From the NCBI GenBank assembly GCA_029547605.1, contig JAKPPB010000101.1, positions 1-40,833 on the forward strand: a stretch of 40,833 nucleotides of DNA. The letters are read 5' to 3'. Every line of letters starts with the position of its first letter. The stretch's first letter is position 1. Positions 33,472 through 40,833 of this stretch are shown piece after piece. The DNA is from Methanobacteriota archaeon (GTDB lineage Archaea; Halobacteriota; Methanomicrobia; Methanomicrobiales; Methanospirillaceae). A program made the translations under genes and the position numbers. The notes beneath the pieces were generated by a model. It saw only the letters and a list, made by a program, of their open reading frames with translations, searched no databases and was not told where the DNA came from.

Positions 33472-34497
33472 TTACTGTATTGCATACCGCAGCAACGCCG
33501 CAATCCCCCCCAGTGCCTCGAGCCGCTTCCCGGGCTCAAACACGGAAGAGAGGACCACGATGCGGGCATTCTGGAGTTCGGCACGGTCGAGGAGGGAGAC
33601 AATGCCCTCATCGCGGAGGAGGGAGTCTGCAACCAGCACTTCCTCGGCAGCTCCATATTCGATACCCTTTTTGACCTCATCCCGGCCATATGCCGCAGGG
33701 AGACCCTTTGAGATCCGCATCAGGAGCTCGTCCATGGCCCTCACCTCGGATCCGAGCTGCACGTCCTCGTGGATCTTCTCAAGCAGGCCCTGGCCGATCA
33801 CCTCCTGGACGGCGCCCGCCCCGATGCGCCTGGTCTCGACGACGAGCATCTTACCCGACACTTCGGGGAGGCATGACCTCAGAAACCGTGCGAAGTCGTC
33901 CTTGATGAACCCGGGCCCCGCGATGATGAGGGGACCTTTCAATTCGGCGAGATGACCTGCAATTCTCGAAAAGAATGCAGGGCGGGAATCGGTCTCCCCC
34001 CCCTTGCCGCTCCCCATGGTGATGGTGACCACTCCTTCCGGCCCGTACTGCCGCATCCGGAAGATCTCGGCCTCTCCTTCCTCGATGGTGAGCACATGGA
34101 CAAGTTCGTGGATCGATGCTTTTACCGCACGTTCTACCCTCTCAAGGTCACGGGGCCTCCATCGCTTGATCACCGACAATTCGAAGCCTGGTTCGATATT
34201 GAGGGTGTGATACGCGCCGGAGTCCATCCCGTGCTCGATGGTCCCGGATACCCGCAAACGGTTGGAGAAGGCATGAAGTTCCACGCGCTCTACCCTTATG
34301 CCAAGCCTCACCGGGCGTTTTTCGAGCTTCTCAGGCCGCAGTTTGTCCTGGGCAGCTTCCACGGTCCGAAGAGTGGTGGCAAAGACGAGGTCTCCGGGGC
34401 AGACCAAGTGGGAGAGGTGCCAGAGGTCGTCCACGCTCTCGGGGAAGAGCCTGATCTCCCCGAAAGATTTTTGCATCTCGCAGTACTCAGCCTTCAT
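33472..34497 (-). CDS. pelA: mRNA surveillance protein Pelota
   Basis: A 341-residue archaeal Pelota (Dom34), related to release factor aRF1 but without the GGQ motif. It binds stalled ribosomes with a partner GTPase (aEF1A in archaea) and promotes splitting with ABCE1. The N-terminal Sm-like domain contains GEIRLFPESVDDLWHLSHLVCPGD, the central domain GPLIIAGPGFIKDDFARFL, and the C-terminal domain GIEYGAAEEVLVADSLLRD and VVLSSVFEPGKRLEALGGIAALLRY. The start overlaps the stop of rqcH by ATGA, so the two are translated together. Confidence 0.94.
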   Translation of the reverse strand: MKAEYCEMQKSFGEIRLFPESVDDLWHLSHLVCPGDLVFATTLRTVEAAQDKLRPEKLEKRPVRLGIRVERVELHAFSNRLRVSGTIEHGMDSGAYHTLNIEPGFELSVIKRWRPRDLERVERAVKASIHELVHVLTIEEGEAEIFRMRQYGPEGVVTITMGSGKGGETDSRPAFFSRIAGHLAELKGPLIIAGPGFIKDDFARFLRSCLPEVSGKMLVVETRRIGAGAVQEVIGQGLLEKIHEDVQLGSEVRAMDELLMRISKGLPAAYGRDEVKKGIEYGAAEEVLVADSLLRDEGIVSLLDRAELQNARIVVLSSVFEPGKRLEALGGIAALLRYAIQ

Positions 34498-36389
34498 TCT
34501 CCCTCCACGATATCTGACCCGCCCGGCGGGACAAACGCAGCGACCGCCTCTGTGTTCAGTACGGCTTTCATGCCCCTCTGTTCATCCGGGGGGATCTTCT
34601 CCTTGAGGATACGCAGCACCTTCTTTGCGGTGTCGTTTGGCTCGAAGCGGCCAGGGCGAAGCTCCACCATGACAGAAGCCCGCGACCGGACAGCTGAAGG
34701 CGGGCCGCCGATCACTCCCGTTTCAGGGGACCGCTGCAGCCCTATTGCCACCCCGAGCGCGACATCGCGGTAGTAGGTCCGTTCCCCGCGGACGATGAAC
34801 GAACCCCGGCTCACGTATTCTCCTGACTCAGGAGTCTTGCTCACCTGGGCAGGGGTGGCACTATACACGTCGGCAGAGAAGTGCCCGCTCTTCCAGGCAC
34901 CCGAGTACGAGGCAGCAAATGTCGCCACCTCGTCCATGTGCGCTGTCGCGCCCTTGACAATCACCACCGATGCCCCATGCACGTCGGCGTGGACGAAGAG
35001 GTCGCCTCCCTCCATGTATTTCTTGACAAGTTCCTCGTTCTGGGAGGCGTCCCTCCCCCCTACCACCAGGACGCCGTCGCGTGTGAAGAACCAGCGGAAC
35101 CGGTGATACCACCGCTTCTTTATGAGAGGGAGGGTGTCGACCTTTCTTTCCGTCCGGGCGGCCACCCGATCCATCGCCGTGGACGCACCCGCAATTTTCC
35201 TCTTAAACTTCTTTATTTCCTCGTAATACCGGGCGGCGTTGGCTTCCACACTCTCCCCCACGACGAGGGTAACGCGTTCGCCGAGATCCACATCCACTGC
35301 CGCGCGGTCAGGATACACGGCAAGGACTTTCGTAGCTGGGCCGCTCACCTGGGACTTCAGAATGGTCTCGATTTCCTGCCAGGAACGGCTGCCCCGTGCA
35401 TCCTGCAGGGTGCGGAGAAGATCCTGGACGAACGGGTAATTCGAGTAGATCGCATCCACAGCCCGTTCGCACCGGGTGATATTTTTATTGAACTTGGCAA
35501 CCGCTGCCTCCTGCTGGGCCCTGATACGAGCCTCACGGGAGACCTTCTCCTTCTGCATCATTGGGCCCTGCCGGGTGTCCTGTGAAGGGGGATAGAAGGT
35601 ATCGAGCGCCTGGTTGAAAAGGGAGAATTCACTCCCGCTGGCGCCCATGGCCAGGGGGAACGGCAGGCATTCTCTGGAGTGTATTACTGGGTTTATCTGT
35701 GTTTCAGCAGTTGAAAGGAGTTCCATGACTGCACGATGGAGGACAGCGGGATCAGCTCCTGACGCAGGCGTCTTCTTGTCGATGCCGGCAGCCTTCACGA
35801 TATATTCTGCATACGGTCCCCCGAGCATGGCACCAACGGCAAGCGCCCGGACGATATCCCTCTCGTCGGAAGCAAGGAAATTGGCAAATGCTTCATAACC
35901 TGAAGTGGCAGGACCTTCAGGAGGGAGGGCATAGTGCGCACCTGCAACCACTTCCCTCTCCCTGAACCGGTGGGTGGAGAACGGCTGGATGATACGGTAG
36001 TCATCGTCACAAAGAACGATGTTTCCCTGGTCGAAGAGCTCGATTATCAGGTGGTAGACGCGGTCGTGCTTCCCGACATCAAAGGTGATGATACGCTGGA
36101 TACCATGCTGCCGTATTCCAAGCACCCGCCCTCCCCCGAGGTATTTCCGGAGCAGCATGGCGAATGCCGGGGGATTCTTTGGCGGTGAAACGGGATGTGC
36201 GGTAAGGTGTGCCCTTCGACCCGGCTCGATCAGGAGCTGGTGCCGGGCGTGCTCTTTTCCATGGAGGCGGATGACCATGATTCCGGGGGAGATCACGTAG
36301 ACCTTGTAGACCCAGAGCGGGAGGAGCCGGTTCCACTCGGTGACTGCCGCCCGCACGTCGATCCCGCTCATGCCCTTCTCGGTGGCCAT
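34494..36389 (-). CDS. rqcH: RqcH / NEMF-family ribosome quality control factor
   Basis: A 631-residue NFACT protein. The NFACT-N domain fills the first ~200 residues (MSGIDVRAAVTEWNRLLPLWVYKVY...FDQGNIVLCDDDYRIIQ). Coiled-coil helices are in the middle (about 300-430). The NFACT-R domain is near the C-terminus (WFFTRDGVLVVGGRDASQNEELVKKYMEGGDLFVHADVHGASVVIVKG). Homologues bind 50S subunits still carrying peptidyl-tRNA and, in bacteria, add alanine tails. The pelA overlap links ribosome splitting to nascent-chain handling. GVAIGLQRSPETGVIGGPP lies near residue 545. The start at 36389 gives MATEKGMSG; the Met at residue 7 is the alternative. Confidence 0.93.
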   Translation of the reverse strand: MATEKGMSGIDVRAAVTEWNRLLPLWVYKVYVISPGIMVIRLHGKEHARHQLLIEPGRRAHLTAHPVSPPKNPPAFAMLLRKYLGGGRVLGIRQHGIQRIITFDVGKHDRVYHLIIELFDQGNIVLCDDDYRIIQPFSTHRFREREVVAGAHYALPPEGPATSGYEAFANFLASDERDIVRALAVGAMLGGPYAEYIVKAAGIDKKTPASGADPAVLHRAVMELLSTAETQINPVIHSRECLPFPLAMGASGSEFSLFNQALDTFYPPSQDTRQGPMMQKEKVSREARIRAQQEAAVAKFNKNITRCERAVDAIYSNYPFVQDLLRTLQDARGSRSWQEIETILKSQVSGPATKVLAVYPDRAAVDVDLGERVTLVVGESVEANAARYYEEIKKFKRKIAGASTAMDRVAARTERKVDTLPLIKKRWYHRFRWFFTRDGVLVVGGRDASQNEELVKKYMEGGDLFVHADVHGASVVIVKGATAHMDEVATFAASYSGAWKSGHFSADVYSATPAQVSKTPESGEYVSRGSFIVRGERTYYRDVALGVAIGLQRSPETGVIGGPPSAVRSRASVMVELRPGRFEPNDTAKKVLRILKEKIPPDEQRGMKAVLNTEAVAAFVPPGGSDIVEGE

Positions 36390-36445: not shown

Positions 36446-36976
36446 ATGAGTGCCGGACCTTCTGGAAAATCTGACAAGAATCCCCGCAAGAAGTCTTTCA
36501 TGGAGAAATACAGGGAGTACCTCGAGCAGCAGAAGAGGGCAGCCAGCGCTGCGAAGAAGGAAGAATCCTTGCAGAAGAAGGCCGGGAGCGGGAAGGAGAA
36601 AGAGACGCCTGCAGAGGAAGCGGTTGCCGATACCTCAGAAGAGGTCGAGGTCCCCCAGAAGAAGAAGACCCGCGAGGAGAAGCAGCAGGAGCACCTGGTC
36701 CGGATCGAGAAGACGCTCATCGCCTGCGGCCTTGGAATCGCAACGGGAATCATCGCGTTCCTGGTGATCAGCCCCGCCCAGGTTGAAGGGCTCAACAGCT
36801 ATACCATCCTCGCACTCCTTATCATGATCGCGGGCATCGTGGTCCAGCGGCATATATTCATGCTGCTCCGCCTCGGGTCCCAGAAGATGGGCGCAAAGGA
36901 CTGGCTTTACCAGGGCTTTATGACCTTTGCATTCTGGTTCATCAGCTGGACGCTCCTGCTGACCCAGGGAGCCTGA
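36446..36976 (+). CDS. small membrane protein with charged N-terminus (possibly EMC6-like)
   Basis: A 176-residue protein. The first ~85 residues are highly charged and Lys/Glu/Ala-rich (probably helical or disordered, cytosolic). Three membrane helices follow: LIACGLGIATGIIAFLVIS, YTILALLIMIAGIVVQRHIF and WLYQGFMTFAFWFISWTLLL. The three-helix layout reminds me of EMC6-like archaeal membrane proteins, whose eukaryotic relatives help insert membrane proteins, but I cannot confirm this. It is only 17 bases upstream of ABCE1 on the same strand, so it is probably cotranscribed. Confidence 0.7.
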   Translation: MSAGPSGKSDKNPRKKSFMEKYREYLEQQKRAASAAKKEESLQKKAGSGKEKETPAEEAVADTSEEVEVPQKKKTREEKQQEHLVRIEKTLIACGLGIATGIIAFLVISPAQVEGLNSYTILALLIMIAGIVVQRHIFMLLRLGSQKMGAKDWLYQGFMTFAFWFISWTLLLTQGA

Positions 36977-36993
36977 AGAGACCGGCATCACGT

Positions 36994-38772
36994 ATGCGGA
37001 TCGCAATCGTCCACAGGGACCGGTGTCATCCACGGAAGTGCGGCACCGAGTGCATTATCTACTGCCCGAGGGTACGGACAGGAGACGAGACGGTAGTCAT
37101 CGGGGAGGACGGAAAGGCCTTCATCTCCGAGGAGCTCTGCGTGGGCTGTGGAATTTGCGTAAAGAAGTGTCCGTTCGAGGCCCTCGATATTGTAAGCCTC
37201 CCTGAGGAACTCGAGCACCCTACTCACCGCTACGGCGAGAACGGGTTTGCACTCTACGGCCTCCCCGCGCCCACCGAGGGGAAGGTGACCGGAATACTCG
37301 GCCCTAATGGGATAGGCAAGAGTACCGCGGTGAAGATCCTCTCGGGGCAGCTCAAGCCAAACCTCGGCTTCTTCGAGCGGGAGATCGCCTGGGAGGAGAT
37401 CCTGAAGAAATACGCGGGCACCGAACTTTTCGAATACTTAAACACTATCTCCCAGAAGAAGCTGAAAGTGGCAGTCAAGCCTCAGTACATCGACTATATC
37501 CCGAAGGTCTTCTCAGGGACCCCCCGGGAACTTTTGAAGAGCACGGACGAGCGGGGGGCGCTCGCGTCCTGCATTGAAGCTCTGAATGTCACGCCTATCC
37601 TTGAAAACGACATCTCCACGCTCTCGGGCGGCGAACTGCAGCGTGTAGCGATTGCCGCCTGCCTCGCGAGGGACGCGGACTTCTATTTCCTTGACGAGAT
37701 CACGCCGTTCCTTGACATCTACCAGCGGATGGCGGCAGCGAACCTGATCCGAGAGCTCGCGCTCCGCCGCCCGATAGTAATCGTCGAGCACGACCTCGCC
37801 ATCCTCGACATGCTTGCAGACACCGTGCACGTCGCGTACGGGAAACCTGCGGCTTTCGGCGTGATTACCCAGCCAAAAGGGGTAAGGGTCGGGATCAACC
37901 AGTACCTCGAAGGGTTCCTGCCGGAAGAGAATGTCAGGTTCCGCGACCACCCGGTCCTCTTCGAGAAGAGGGCACATGCTGCGGGGTCTGACCGGGCAAC
38001 TCTCCTTGAATTCCCGCCGATGAAGAAGACTTTCGACCAGTTCAGCCTCGAAATTACTGGAGGAAGCATCCGCGCGGGCGAAGTCCTTGGTGTCCTCGGG
38101 GCGAACGGGATCGGAAAGAGCACGTTCGCTCGCCTTTTAGCGGGTGCGGAGGAGCCTGACGGCGGCCCCATCACGCTCTCGTCCCGTGTATCCTATAAAC
38201 CGCAGTACATCAAGGCCCCGAGCTCAGATACGGTCGAGTTTTACCTGCGCTCCTGCACCACCACGTTTGACACTTCGCTCTACCAGCACGATATCATCGA
38301 GCCCCTCTCTCTTCGGCCGCTGCTCCAGTCTCCTCTCGACACGCTCTCCGGCGGCGAATTGCAGCGGGTAGCAATCGCTGCATGCCTCTCCAGGCCTGCC
38401 GACCTCTACATCCTCGACGAGCCGAGCGCTCACCTCGACGTGGAGCAGCGTGTGAAGATCACGAGGATGTTCCGCCACCATGTCGACGGGCGGGATGCGG
38501 CGATACTCGTCATCGACCACGACATCTACCTCGTCGACATGATCAGCGAGCGTATTCTCGTTTTCGACGGGACACCGGGAGTCCACGGGGAAGCGACGGG
38601 GCCCTTCGACATGCGCGAGGGGATGAACAGGTTCCTCTCGCGCCTCGGGATCACGTTCCGCAGGGACAAGACCGGGCGCCCCCGGATCAACAAGCCGGGT
38701 TCATACCTTGACCGTGACCAGCGTGCGAACGGGGAGTATTATTACTATACCGATAAAGAAATGGGGGAGTGA
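36994..38772 (+). CDS. ribosome-recycling ATPase ABCE1 (Rli1)
   Basis: A 592-residue twin-ABC protein that splits ribosomes after termination or Pelota rescue. The N-terminal domain binds two 4Fe-4S clusters: C11-x4-C16-x3-C20-x3-C24-P and C49-x2-C52-x2-C55-x3-C59-P. NBD1 has Walker A GPNGIGKS (103-110) and LSGGELQR (210-217); NBD2 has GANGIGKST (369-377), LSGGELQR (451-458) and LDEPSAHLD (474-482). NBD1's Walker B/D-loop reads FLDEITPFLD (232-241), not the more common DEPSSYLD. There is no clear ribosome binding site. The C-terminal tail is Tyr-rich. It lies across a short divergent gap from rqcH-pelA. Confidence 0.96.
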   Translation: MRIAIVHRDRCHPRKCGTECIIYCPRVRTGDETVVIGEDGKAFISEELCVGCGICVKKCPFEALDIVSLPEELEHPTHRYGENGFALYGLPAPTEGKVTGILGPNGIGKSTAVKILSGQLKPNLGFFEREIAWEEILKKYAGTELFEYLNTISQKKLKVAVKPQYIDYIPKVFSGTPRELLKSTDERGALASCIEALNVTPILENDISTLSGGELQRVAIAACLARDADFYFLDEITPFLDIYQRMAAANLIRELALRRPIVIVEHDLAILDMLADTVHVAYGKPAAFGVITQPKGVRVGINQYLEGFLPEENVRFRDHPVLFEKRAHAAGSDRATLLEFPPMKKTFDQFSLEITGGSIRAGEVLGVLGANGIGKSTFARLLAGAEEPDGGPITLSSRVSYKPQYIKAPSSDTVEFYLRSCTTTFDTSLYQHDIIEPLSLRPLLQSPLDTLSGGELQRVAIAACLSRPADLYILDEPSAHLDVEQRVKITRMFRHHVDGRDAAILVIDHDIYLVDMISERILVFDGTPGVHGEATGPFDMREGMNRFLSRLGITFRRDKTGRPRINKPGSYLDRDQRANGEYYYYTDKEMGE

Positions 38773-38859
38773 CAGGATACCCTGTCCAGATGTTCTTTCA
38801 CAGATGAATGATGAAGGGCAGGGTTGCAACGCGACTGATTGGATAATATCTGCTGCTTC
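38773..38859. other. start of the non-coding stretch after ABCE1
   Basis: This is the first part of a 663-base region with no convincing gene (38773-39435). It has mixed composition with a short AT-rich patch (GGATAATATCTG) just before the first repeat copy. A similar AT-rich patch (GATTATAATAG) precedes the second copy, so the repeat unit may begin slightly upstream of where I place it. Confidence 0.4.
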
Positions 38860-39056
38860 GCACTGGCCCTATCGCGCTTAGGGGATGCCACAGTGGCGGG
38901 GCGAAGCCCCAAGAACGTCATCGTGTGATGAGTGCGGTTCGTGTTCAGCTTGGAAACAGATTGGACCGGAACCTTATACGGGGAGGGGGAGAATCCCCCT
39001 CCCCAGACCCCTCCCCCGATACGCGATAGCCTGCAGGAAGAGGTCAACTGGAAAAC
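38860..39056 (+). repeat. hairpin-rich tandem repeat, copy 1
   Basis: This copy begins GCACTGGCCCTAT. Three hairpins are visible: GGGGC/GCCCC around GAA (38898-38910), CATC/GATG around GTGT (38919-38930), and a perfect 10-bp G/C stem with a five-base AGAAT loop (38980-39004). It ends in GATACGCGATAGCC and a GAAAAC stretch. Copy 2 starts 219 bases downstream with most of the sequence preserved. The frame reading TSSCDECG is open in both copies but is broken by indels and lacks gene-like codon use, so I treat it as non-coding. The strand is unknown. Confidence 0.8.
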
Positions 39057-39078
39057 TTCTGATTATAATAGATGCCCA

Positions 39079-39264
39079 GCACTGGCCCTATAGCGCTCAA
39101 AGGATGCCACAGTGGCGGGGCGTCAGCCCCTAGAACATCATCGTGTGATGAGTGTGGTTTGTGTTTAGCTTGGAAACGGATTTCACTGGAACCTGTGACA
39201 GGGAGGGGGAGAATCCCCATCCCCCTGATACGCGGTAGCCAATGGGCAGGGTAAACTCGGAAAC
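39079..39264 (+). repeat. hairpin-rich tandem repeat, copy 2
   Basis: This copy starts GCACTGGCCCTAT and aligns with copy 1 along its length. The hairpins are retained: GGGGC/GCCCC with the loop changed to GTCA (39117-39130), identical CATC-GTGT-GATG (39139-39150), and a G/C stem around AGAAT with one mismatch (about 39201-39223). GATACGCGGTAGCC closes the unit (39227-39240). Substitutions are spread across the unit and not confined to third codon positions. Confidence 0.8.
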
Positions 39265-39290
39265 CCTCCTGACCCTTCAATTTCACCACG

Positions 39291-39350
39291 GCACTGGCCA
39301 TATCACAGGTTAGGGATTTCACTTTATGGGGGAAACCCAAAGGAGCGCCA
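39291..39350 (+). repeat. degenerate third copy of the tandem repeat
   Basis: GCACTGGCCATAT recurs 212 bases after copy 2, followed by GGTTAGGGATTTCACTTTATGGGGGAAACCC-like sequence (39309-39338). It matches the start of copies 1 and 2 loosely, and the first hairpin is replaced by a GGG/CCC stem around AAA at the same position. The rest of the unit is missing. Confidence 0.5.
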
Positions 39351-39408
39351 GATACAATACGTGCCGTTCTGTCTCGTAAAGAGAGCGATCAAGTCCTTCA
39401 GCTCTTGC

Positions 39409-39435: not shown

Positions 39436-40833
39436 TTATTGCAGTCCCTTTATGTCCCAGTCTTCAACAGGGGGTTCTGCCGGGGTCTCAGCCGGTTTCT
39501 TCCTCTTTTTAAGGAAGAAGAGGATGATGAGGACCGCTGCGATGACGATGATCACAAGGATGACGATCCTGATGATCATGTCCATCGGGAATCCGCCGTT
39601 GATCGGGGTTGCCGGGACCATTGTGGTGACTTCTGTTGCGACCGCTGTCGTGGGGGGTGGACTGGCCACGAACAGCGCGAAGATGCTGGTGTGCGTGATC
39701 TTGGCGCTCACGGTCCGGGTCTCGCTGCTCACGGTGGTGGGAATATCCTCCCAGGCAGAGGTCCCGGCATTGAACCACTTGATGGAGAGGTCCCGTCCCT
39801 GGAGGCTGCCCCATTCGTTCTCAGGGATGGTGATGGCGAAGGTCACGTAGGGATCGAATGTTGCCCCGGTGGGTTCGATCTCGTAGGCATACCCGGCAAA
39901 CGAGTAACCGGACGCAGGGACCGTGGGTACTTCTGAATTCGGGATCCTCCTGATGGAAATCGTCAGGAGTGGCCCTCCCGCCGAGTCCTGCGGCCTCATG
40001 CCGTTCGGCATGGATATCGATCCGATGCCGTCCTCCGAGACGATCACGACCGACTGGGAGAGTGCGAGCGCCGAGTTCAGGGGCAGGACGCCTCCCGGAG
40101 TCGAGGGAATGCCTGGTGTGGTGGGTGTCGGAGTGGGTGTCGGAGTGGGGGTTGCGGTTGCTCCGCCGGCTGCAAAGAAGCCTCCCCCTCCTCCACCGCC
40201 GCCTCCTCCACCGCCGCCGCTTGCGCCGCTGCGGACGTCGATGAAGTAGACTTTGGTCATGTTCCCGCTCCCGGCGATGTTCCATGCGGTGAGGGTGACG
40301 TTGTACCTCCCGAACATGTACCGGTGGACCGGGTTTTTCACATCCGAAGAGGTGCCGTCACCGAAGTCCCAGAGCCAGTGGTCTGGATAGCCGGTGGTGG
40401 TGTCAAAGAAAGAAACGTCGAGAGGCTCGTTCCCGTAGGTGGGGCTCGCAGCAAAGTCGACGACCGGGACGGTGATGTTGGTGCGGAGGTTCAGCTGGGT
40501 GGAACTGCCGGCATGGAACGGGTGAGACGTCACCCATGCGCCACCGCCCAGCACATCCTGGCACTCGGCGAGGATTCCGTCCACGTAGAACTGGATGGGG
40601 GCACCGCTCTCGATATAGCCATCGACCTGCAGTCTCGCGTCAGTCATGTTCGGCCCGCCGTACTTCCCCGCCGTGGTCACCGGGAGCGGGTTTCGGTCAT
40701 TCGTCCTTCCTCCCGTTACCCGCGCTTCAATATGGGCTCCGACAGGCGCCGGGACTCCGTCGCGGATAGTTACGTCACCGTAGAACTCATGCGGGTTGAC
40801 CGGGACGCCGGTTTGCGTGGGCGTGGTGCTGGT
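39436..40833 (-). CDS. membrane-anchored PKD surface protein (5' end outside window)
   Basis: The frame is open to the window end, so only the last 465 residues are seen. In order they show: a Thr/Pro stretch; an FYGDVTIRDGVPAPVGAHIEA domain common in methanogen surface proteins; a PKD domain with WLWDFGDGTSSDVKNPVHRY; a run of 13 Gly; a (TP)n linker; a beta domain of about 170 residues (SVVIVSEDGIGSISMPNG...THTSIFALFVA); and a C-terminal membrane helix (IVILVIIVIAAVLIILFFL) with a KKRKKP stop-transfer signal and an acidic tail. It is probably a cell-surface or S-layer-associated protein. GTG 40680 is an internal codon, not the start. Codon use matches the GC-rich core. Confidence 0.85.
   Translation of the reverse strand, partial: TSTTPTQTGVPVNPHEFYGDVTIRDGVPAPVGAHIEARVTGGRTNDRNPLPVTTAGKYGGPNMTDARLQVDGYIESGAPIQFYVDGILAECQDVLGGGAWVTSHPFHAGSSTQLNLRTNITVPVVDFAASPTYGNEPLDVSFFDTTTGYPDHWLWDFGDGTSSDVKNPVHRYMFGRYNVTLTAWNIAGSGNMTKVYFIDVRSGASGGGGGGGGGGGGGFFAAGGATATPTPTPTPTPTTPGIPSTPGGVLPLNSALALSQSVVIVSEDGIGSISMPNGMRPQDSAGGPLLTISIRRIPNSEVPTVPASGYSFAGYAYEIEPTGATFDPYVTFAITIPENEWGSLQGRDLSIKWFNAGTSAWEDIPTTVSSETRTVSAKITHTSIFALFVASPPPTTAVATEVTTMVPATPINGGFPMDMIIRIVILVIIVIAAVLIILFFLKKRKKPAETPAEPPVEDWDIKGLQ
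40123..40146 (-). repeat. 12-base direct repeat coding the Thr-Pro linker
   Basis: Two exact tandem copies of GGGTGTCGGAGT (plus strand) encode part of the TPTPTP linker of the surface protein. A related GGGGGTTG follows. The repeat unit is a multiple of three, so changes in copy number would keep the frame. Confidence 0.7.

Follow-up and report, generated by a model that had tools for sequence, protein, structure and literature searches.

What kind of element is the hairpin-rich, non-coding repeat that lies in the gap between two convergent genes in the archaeal DNA analysed here (the window, 40,833 nt in its full length)? A preliminary description, made from the sequence alone, had proposed either a structured RNA array or a mobile or recombination-prone intergenic element. 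These proposals differ in what they predict for base pairing, for the strand on which it is conserved and for the ends of related copies in other genomes, and we examined each of these.

The array consists of three head-to-tail units

The repeat is present in the window as three head-to-tail units of ~185 bp (Table 1). As described previously, direct repeats of the form GCACTGGCC[C/A]TAT recur at 38860, 39079 and 39291, with spacings of 219 and 212, and a 100-nt block (38905-39004) is repeated at 39125-39224 with 86% identity. The hairpins reported earlier are likewise all present in the sequence: the AGAAT-loop stem, CATC-GTGT-GATG, the two GGGGC hairpins, and GGG-AAA-CCC, the corresponding hairpin in what had been taken as the third copy. 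The register of those copies was half a unit off, the true unit being a circular permutation of them, as the array edges and solitary full-length copies in other genera show. Methanolinea arrays often begin near position 100 and stop near position 90 of the unit as first drawn, a profile of the permuted unit retrieves full-length copies, and solitary copies with exactly these ends occur in another genus. The first bases of the array lie near 38758-38816, before the start at 38860 initially assigned to it, and what had looked like a decayed third copy belongs to unit 3, as its 3' part. In unit 1 the 5' part, including the leading hairpin, has decayed, leaving the unit recognisable from ~38816; unit 2 is among the sequences used to build our model (R1). 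Tandem Repeats Finder did not detect the array in the window, presumably because of divergence and indels.

Each unit opens with an AGAAT hairpin (GGAGGGGG-AGAAT-CCCCCTCC), followed by GACC-TCCCCC, GCGATAG and a variable linker. The unit then runs through GCACTGG, CTATCGC, GGGG, the hairpins GCC-ACAGY-GGC and GGGGC-loop-GCCCC, and RAGARCGTC, and closes at GAGTGCGGT. As the sequence itself shows, each half repeats the other, imperfectly and in inverted orientation, around the linker.

On one side the array faces an ABCE1-like gene on the plus strand and on the other a PKD-domain protein gene on the minus strand. The ABCE1-like gene has as neighbours NFACT (34494-36389, -) and an archaeal EMC6-like protein (36446-36976, +). 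A scan of the window with a bacterial-type consensus (the host being an archaeon) found no terminator-like T tract, in keeping with the earlier remark that no terminator explains the repeat.

Table 1. Positions of the repeat units, their structural parts and the flanking genes in the window
Feature	Position	Strand	Basis or remark
ABCE1-like gene	36994-38772	+	Fer4_RLI and two ABC domains
Unit 1	38758..38943	+	R1 model full-length match, 118.6 bits; profile match 38816-38941 (positions 62-188)
3' domain of unit 1, GCACT (38860-38864) pairs AGTGC (38931-38935)	38860..38935	+	consensus fold
P1 central inverted repeat, right arm, unit 1, CTATCGCG	38869-38876	+	sequence
P2 (GCCACAGTGGC) and P3 (GGGGCGAAGCCCC), unit 1	38887..38910	+	exact pattern match
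GGGGC-GAA-GCCCC, unit 1	38898-38910		
CATC-GTGT-GATG	38919-38930		also present as a copy
Unit 2, complete	38974..39163	+	R1 158.6 bits, positions 1-185
P6 leading hairpin, unit 2, loop AGAAT	38980..39004	+	sequence; helix 85.8% paired, 127 copies
P1 central inverted repeat, left arm, unit 2, CGCGATAG	39022..39029	+	sequence
P1 right arm, unit 2, CTATAGCG	39088..39095	+	sequence
P2 (GCCACAGTGGC) and P3 (GGGGCGTCAGCCCC), unit 2	39106..39130	+	exact pattern match
GGGGC-GTCA-GCCCC, unit 2	39117-39130		
Unit 3, 3' part decayed	39194..39372	+	R1 68.7 bits; profile match 39194-39351
P6 leading hairpin, unit 3, loop AGAAT	39201..39224	+	sequence
PKD-domain protein gene	39436-40833	-	

The repeat recurs across the order Methanomicrobiales

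The genus used for close comparison was Methanolinea (Methanoregulaceae; 13 genomes/species). Copies, mostly in arrays, were found in 12/13 of its genomes, and the family also occurs elsewhere in the window's own genome, a recurrence that takes the repeat far beyond chance. The units of any one Methanolinea array all point the same way, head to tail. From one congener, G006, whose assembly is 99% complete, copies are almost gone (no match in one search, a single weak match in another). A model search of Methanomicrobiales, of the sort that the preliminary description had recommended, found the repeat in 145 of the 232 genomes, with its blocks and their order kept. Copy number and presence differ widely among species: some methanogen genomes carry tens of copies, and the model search found many in G138, G047 and G116, the per-genome numbers being lower bounds, as the candidates scored in each genome were capped (for the complete genome of G138, at least 46 core matches at E 1e-5 or better). 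The elements are mostly intergenic; by crude gene calls, convergent and tandem gaps prevail, with 7/51 classified elements in divergent ones, and in G138 11/17 copies lie in convergent gaps by the same crude calls.

Some copies are composite. In variant Methanolinea units (L046:9441-9580, L048:15417-15640 and L164) the central part is swapped for another hairpin, either GCAGTTGGGGC...GCCCCAACTGC or GCAGGAAAG...CTTTCCTGC, with the terminal AGCGTCATCGTG..GGAGTGCGGTT retained; these variants represent modular exchange. At four G138 loci (L220, L222, L223 and L236) the core is joined by a second repeated module, GGGCATAAGCCCC...CCCGGCCTGGACGCTACC...GGTAGCCTCGGCCGGG, which occurs in both orientations.

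Homologues on this scale bear on whether the region might be a decayed protein gene or a chance collection of GC-rich hairpins. ORFs of 60-100 aa do run across it in several frames. However, the units differ by indels of many lengths, their linkers vary freely, and the ordered blocks shared by those 145 genomes were absent from shuffled sequence. A gene origin, which the preliminary description had itself named as a way in which it could be wrong, is thus contradicted by the homologues, and we consider decay or chance extremely improbable.

No Rfam covariance model matches the repeat, even at E 1, and no earlier description of the family turned up in Rfam or in the literature searched. The earlier statement that no known family explains the repeat therefore holds for Rfam but not for its kind, small MITE- or BOX-like repeats being known. 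Several specific origins were also considered. A viral or plasmid origin was rejected, as the phage and plasmid collections contained no match to the repeat and one exact core pattern was not found in IMG/VR. An origin from 5S rRNA, prompted by GCCACAGCGGCGGGG, was set aside given the lack of an Rfam match for the repeat; the genome's own assembly shows no 5S gene for comparison. CRISPR arrays would not accommodate units of ~185 nt with linkers of ~20-50 nt.

Base pairing is conserved, with little to mark one strand as RNA

We aligned 127 copies with a model of 13 pairs that lacks P6 and P1, and scored a 39-pair structure on the alignment, in which P2, P3 and the GCAC/GTGC stem lie partly inside the aligning model. 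Overall, 83.8% of cells were paired, and 204 cells were changed on both sides, as compared with 90 in shuffled and 44-101 in slid controls; the covariation score was 0.136 (slid controls, 0.034-0.056). By helix, pairing reached 96.1% in P2, 90.2% in P3, 86.5% in the closing stem GCACT/AGTGC, where 5/5 pairs show changes on both sides, and 71.2% in P1, where for 8/12 pairs at least one copy has both sides altered. Conserved base pairing in the family is real, going beyond both kinds of control, and the loop sequences are conserved as well; a lack of conserved pairing among homologues had been put forward as decisive against the original proposal. RNAalifold, run on a 40-copy alignment, recovered only 13 pairs, probably because two subfamilies misalign in P1, and a general ranking by covariation mostly reflected shared descent.

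Conserved pairing and loops, taken together, would suit a functional structured RNA that serves the cell, is encoded several times on the plus strand and at times travels on mobile elements. If so, G-U pairs should be tolerated on its own strand, and G-U would exceed A-C. Across all cells we counted 247 G-U and 248 A-C, and hence no overall strand asymmetry, with the exception of two long-range pairs (30 G-U vs 7 A-C). Folding against shuffled sequence, another check suggested in the preliminary description, gave z -3.5 on the plus and -2.1 on the minus strand for one period of the window; the mean z values were -2.00 forward and -2.65 reverse for Methanolinea copies, and -1.56 and -1.61, respectively, for other genera. 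The plus-strand preference of the window copy is not upheld by the larger set, in which copies from other genera lean to neither strand and those from Methanolinea lean slightly to the reverse. The equality of G-U and A-C, together with a forward strand that folds no better than its complement, speaks for a palindrome acting as DNA rather than for a functional RNA. Also against the RNA are the near loss of copies from G006 and the failure of P1 to form in single-sequence folds of other genera. A structured RNA is unlikely in our judgement, and the structured RNA array first suggested is only half supported, by the conserved pairing but by no sign of the strand from which an RNA would be read.

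Relatives in other genera have terminal inverted repeats and target-site duplications

In genomes of related genera (G019 and G152), a single unit lies within elements of 260-268 bp that carry a 16-bp sequence, TIR1 (GGCTTTGTTGAAATCC), at one end and its complement at the other; in G024 a related element of ~294 bp has the core halves inverted. All 24 elements from these three genomes have the 16-bp terminal inverted repeat (TIR) with 0-4 mismatches. TIR1 was counted 129 times in G152 and 46 times in G019, as compared with 0-1 for the reversed control, and its sites are paired ~260 bp apart around the unit. Exact 8-bp target duplications (GAAATAAT, ATTATTTA, TATTAATC and GAAAATTC) flank 4/24 elements (re-pairing control, 0.20), and duplications with at most 2 mismatches flank 11/24 (control, 1.8). 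One G152 element is missing at the orthologous site in two congeners, in a region too diverged for the exact junction to be placed. In four Methanolinea genomes, TIR1-like sites number only 1-2 per genome. A shorter relative in a Methanoregulaceae genome (G167; L103:1890-2110) is delimited by a variant form of the TIR, which on its right side reads TGCTTTGTAGAAATCC.

Transposases of the DDE_Tnp_1, IS1595 and ISL3 families were searched as partners of TIR1 and rejected, none being flanked by it. One IS1595-family transposase gene in G152 (277 aa; L146, contig C42) has a different-looking end, GGGGGCAGTTTTTACATAATTACC, and is not a TIR1 partner; partial copies of it occur at several G152 contig ends.

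The same hairpin core is found in two other families, represented by G116 and G083, inside elements with other ends (TIR2, GAGGTCATCCCAAAAC). These, too, combine terminal inverted repeats with target-site duplications, in this case of 3 bp, which were detected at 15 of the 21 TIR2 elements as compared with a mean of 1.2 in the shuffled control. A profile built from four G083 elements scored 24.3 bits on the window and at least 15 bits at 14 places, with no such score in twenty-fold shuffled sequence. The weaker profile from G116 copies reached at least 15 bits at 3 places and at none in shuffled sequence, and gave only 4.3 bits on the window. Common descent of the core would be the simplest reading of these matches, with convergence on the same motif as the formal alternative. 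That the ends around one core differ, as do the duplications they leave (8 bp for one set, 3 bp for the other), indicates that at least two transposition systems carry it.

Methanolinea arrays turn over at orthologous loci

Several Methanolinea arrays are orthologous across species, as judged by their flanks. At one such locus, adjoining a putative nucleoside diphosphate kinase gene (read by eye), there are 8, 4, 1 and 3 units in G011, G008, G000 and G003, respectively. At the ABCE1 locus of the window, arrays occur in G000, G011, G003 and G012; the species without an array have a different downstream gene or sequence, so that no clean empty site is available. Identity within arrays averages 0.74, as compared with 0.64-0.66 between arrays. 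In a tree of the units, those at the outer edges of orthologous arrays pair with their counterparts in other species (support 98/97 and 100/99), and most inner units of G011 and of G008 group with others of their own species, many of the forks being weak. Orthologous outer units and inner units that turn over are the pattern expected of tandem duplication with turnover. Unit 1 of the window groups with the G008 units of the putative kinase locus (96/83), a sign that units may move, or undergo conversion, from one locus to another. After the last unit at one orthologous locus, a conserved stretch (GATATCAGAAACAGGCC...GAAATGGAGGYCGGRAA) is found in three species (L037:8218-8330, L040 and L054). 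Some contig ends fall inside arrays (L042:1-931 and L043:1-613, on G008 contigs C61 and C62), meaning that short-read assemblies break at the repeats and unit numbers are underestimated.

At the Methanolinea arrays no TIR1 pair was found, nor a target duplication, which could be assigned only next to defined ends; the array in the window, having no terminal inverted repeats, is not classed as a MITE. The suggestion of a mobile or recombination-prone intergenic element is supported, through the TIRs and duplications of the relatives and through the locus-specific amplification that leaves orthologous arrays with different numbers of units.

Retention of arrays at orthologous loci would also be compatible with a DNA site that has a host role, such as an intergenic palindrome that stops transcription or organises the chromosome, selected and amplified where it is useful. 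The strand-symmetric palindrome and the intergenic positions, including the convergent-gap copies of G138, fit this idea. On the other hand, the window shows no terminator-like T tract in the bacterial-type scan, species differ widely in whether they have the repeat and in how many copies, and neutral insertions, too, would be expected to favour gaps away from promoters. We therefore hold a host DNA site to be quite improbable, more so than a structured RNA.

Discussion

Our best reading is that the repeat is a small, mobile-element-derived sequence, MITE- or BOX-like in kind. We put at about 0.7 the probability that the array in the window arose by tandem amplification, without TIRs, of a small non-coding repeat interspersed across the order Methanomicrobiales. 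In other genera the palindromic core resides within MITE-like elements that leave target-site duplications; in Methanolinea the units have no such ends, sit at orthologous loci and vary in number by local duplication. Transposases acting in trans may have spread the core as DNA, and its strong hairpins could promote slippage or unequal crossing-over, giving rise to tandem arrays from which units would occasionally move between loci. The Methanolinea form probably lost its ends rather than never having them. A host function is probably absent, and none is needed to account for the evidence.

Several observations weigh against a mobile repeat. Sequence blocks are conserved across an order, which is more than a pure parasite needs; neither TIRs nor duplications were found at the Methanolinea arrays, and no transposase with TIR1 was found among the families searched; and the G-U excess in the two long-range pairs hints at a plus-strand RNA. 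It is conceivable, if somewhat doubtful, that the hairpin core works as a module in its own right, either as RNA or as palindromic DNA, to the benefit of hosts or elements; this would explain why two transposition systems that differ in their ends and target duplications carry it across an order and why Methanolinea kept and multiplied it after losing the ends.

The family offers a natural series, from solitary elements with one type of end, through those with a second type, to end-less arrays at fixed loci, in which the passage from mobile repeat to local tandem array can be studied. It is unusual for two transposition systems to share one structured core, and this raises the testable question of whether the core is merely a passenger or is itself what selection acts on.

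Among known systems, the structured RNA families of Rfam resemble the repeat in having a multi-hairpin unit with conserved pairing and loops, but differ in that the repeat matches none of them and shows no strand asymmetry in its pairing changes. The relatives in G019, G152, G024, G116 and G083 are like MITEs (reviewed in PMC10969869) in their TIRs, target duplications, size (180-360 bp), many intergenic copies and lack of a gene. Unlike MITEs, the Methanolinea arrays have no ends, and the relatives share a core rather than ends, of which there are two unrelated sets; no autonomous parent was found when the DDE_Tnp_1, IS1595 and ISL3 families were screened for TIR1. The BOX elements of Streptococcus pneumoniae are small, modular intergenic repeats with MITE features and a predicted multi-stem structure, whose internal module may be absent or present in multiple copies, and which were judged likely to be parasitic (PMC3049150). 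The likeness of our repeat to BOX is one of kind (small, intergenic, multi-stem, with MITE features) and is an analogy only, no sequence relationship being found or expected. Whereas BOX repeats one internal module, here the whole unit is repeated, in arrays without terminal repeats, and its relatives, unlike BOX, are spread over an order and have ends of two kinds.
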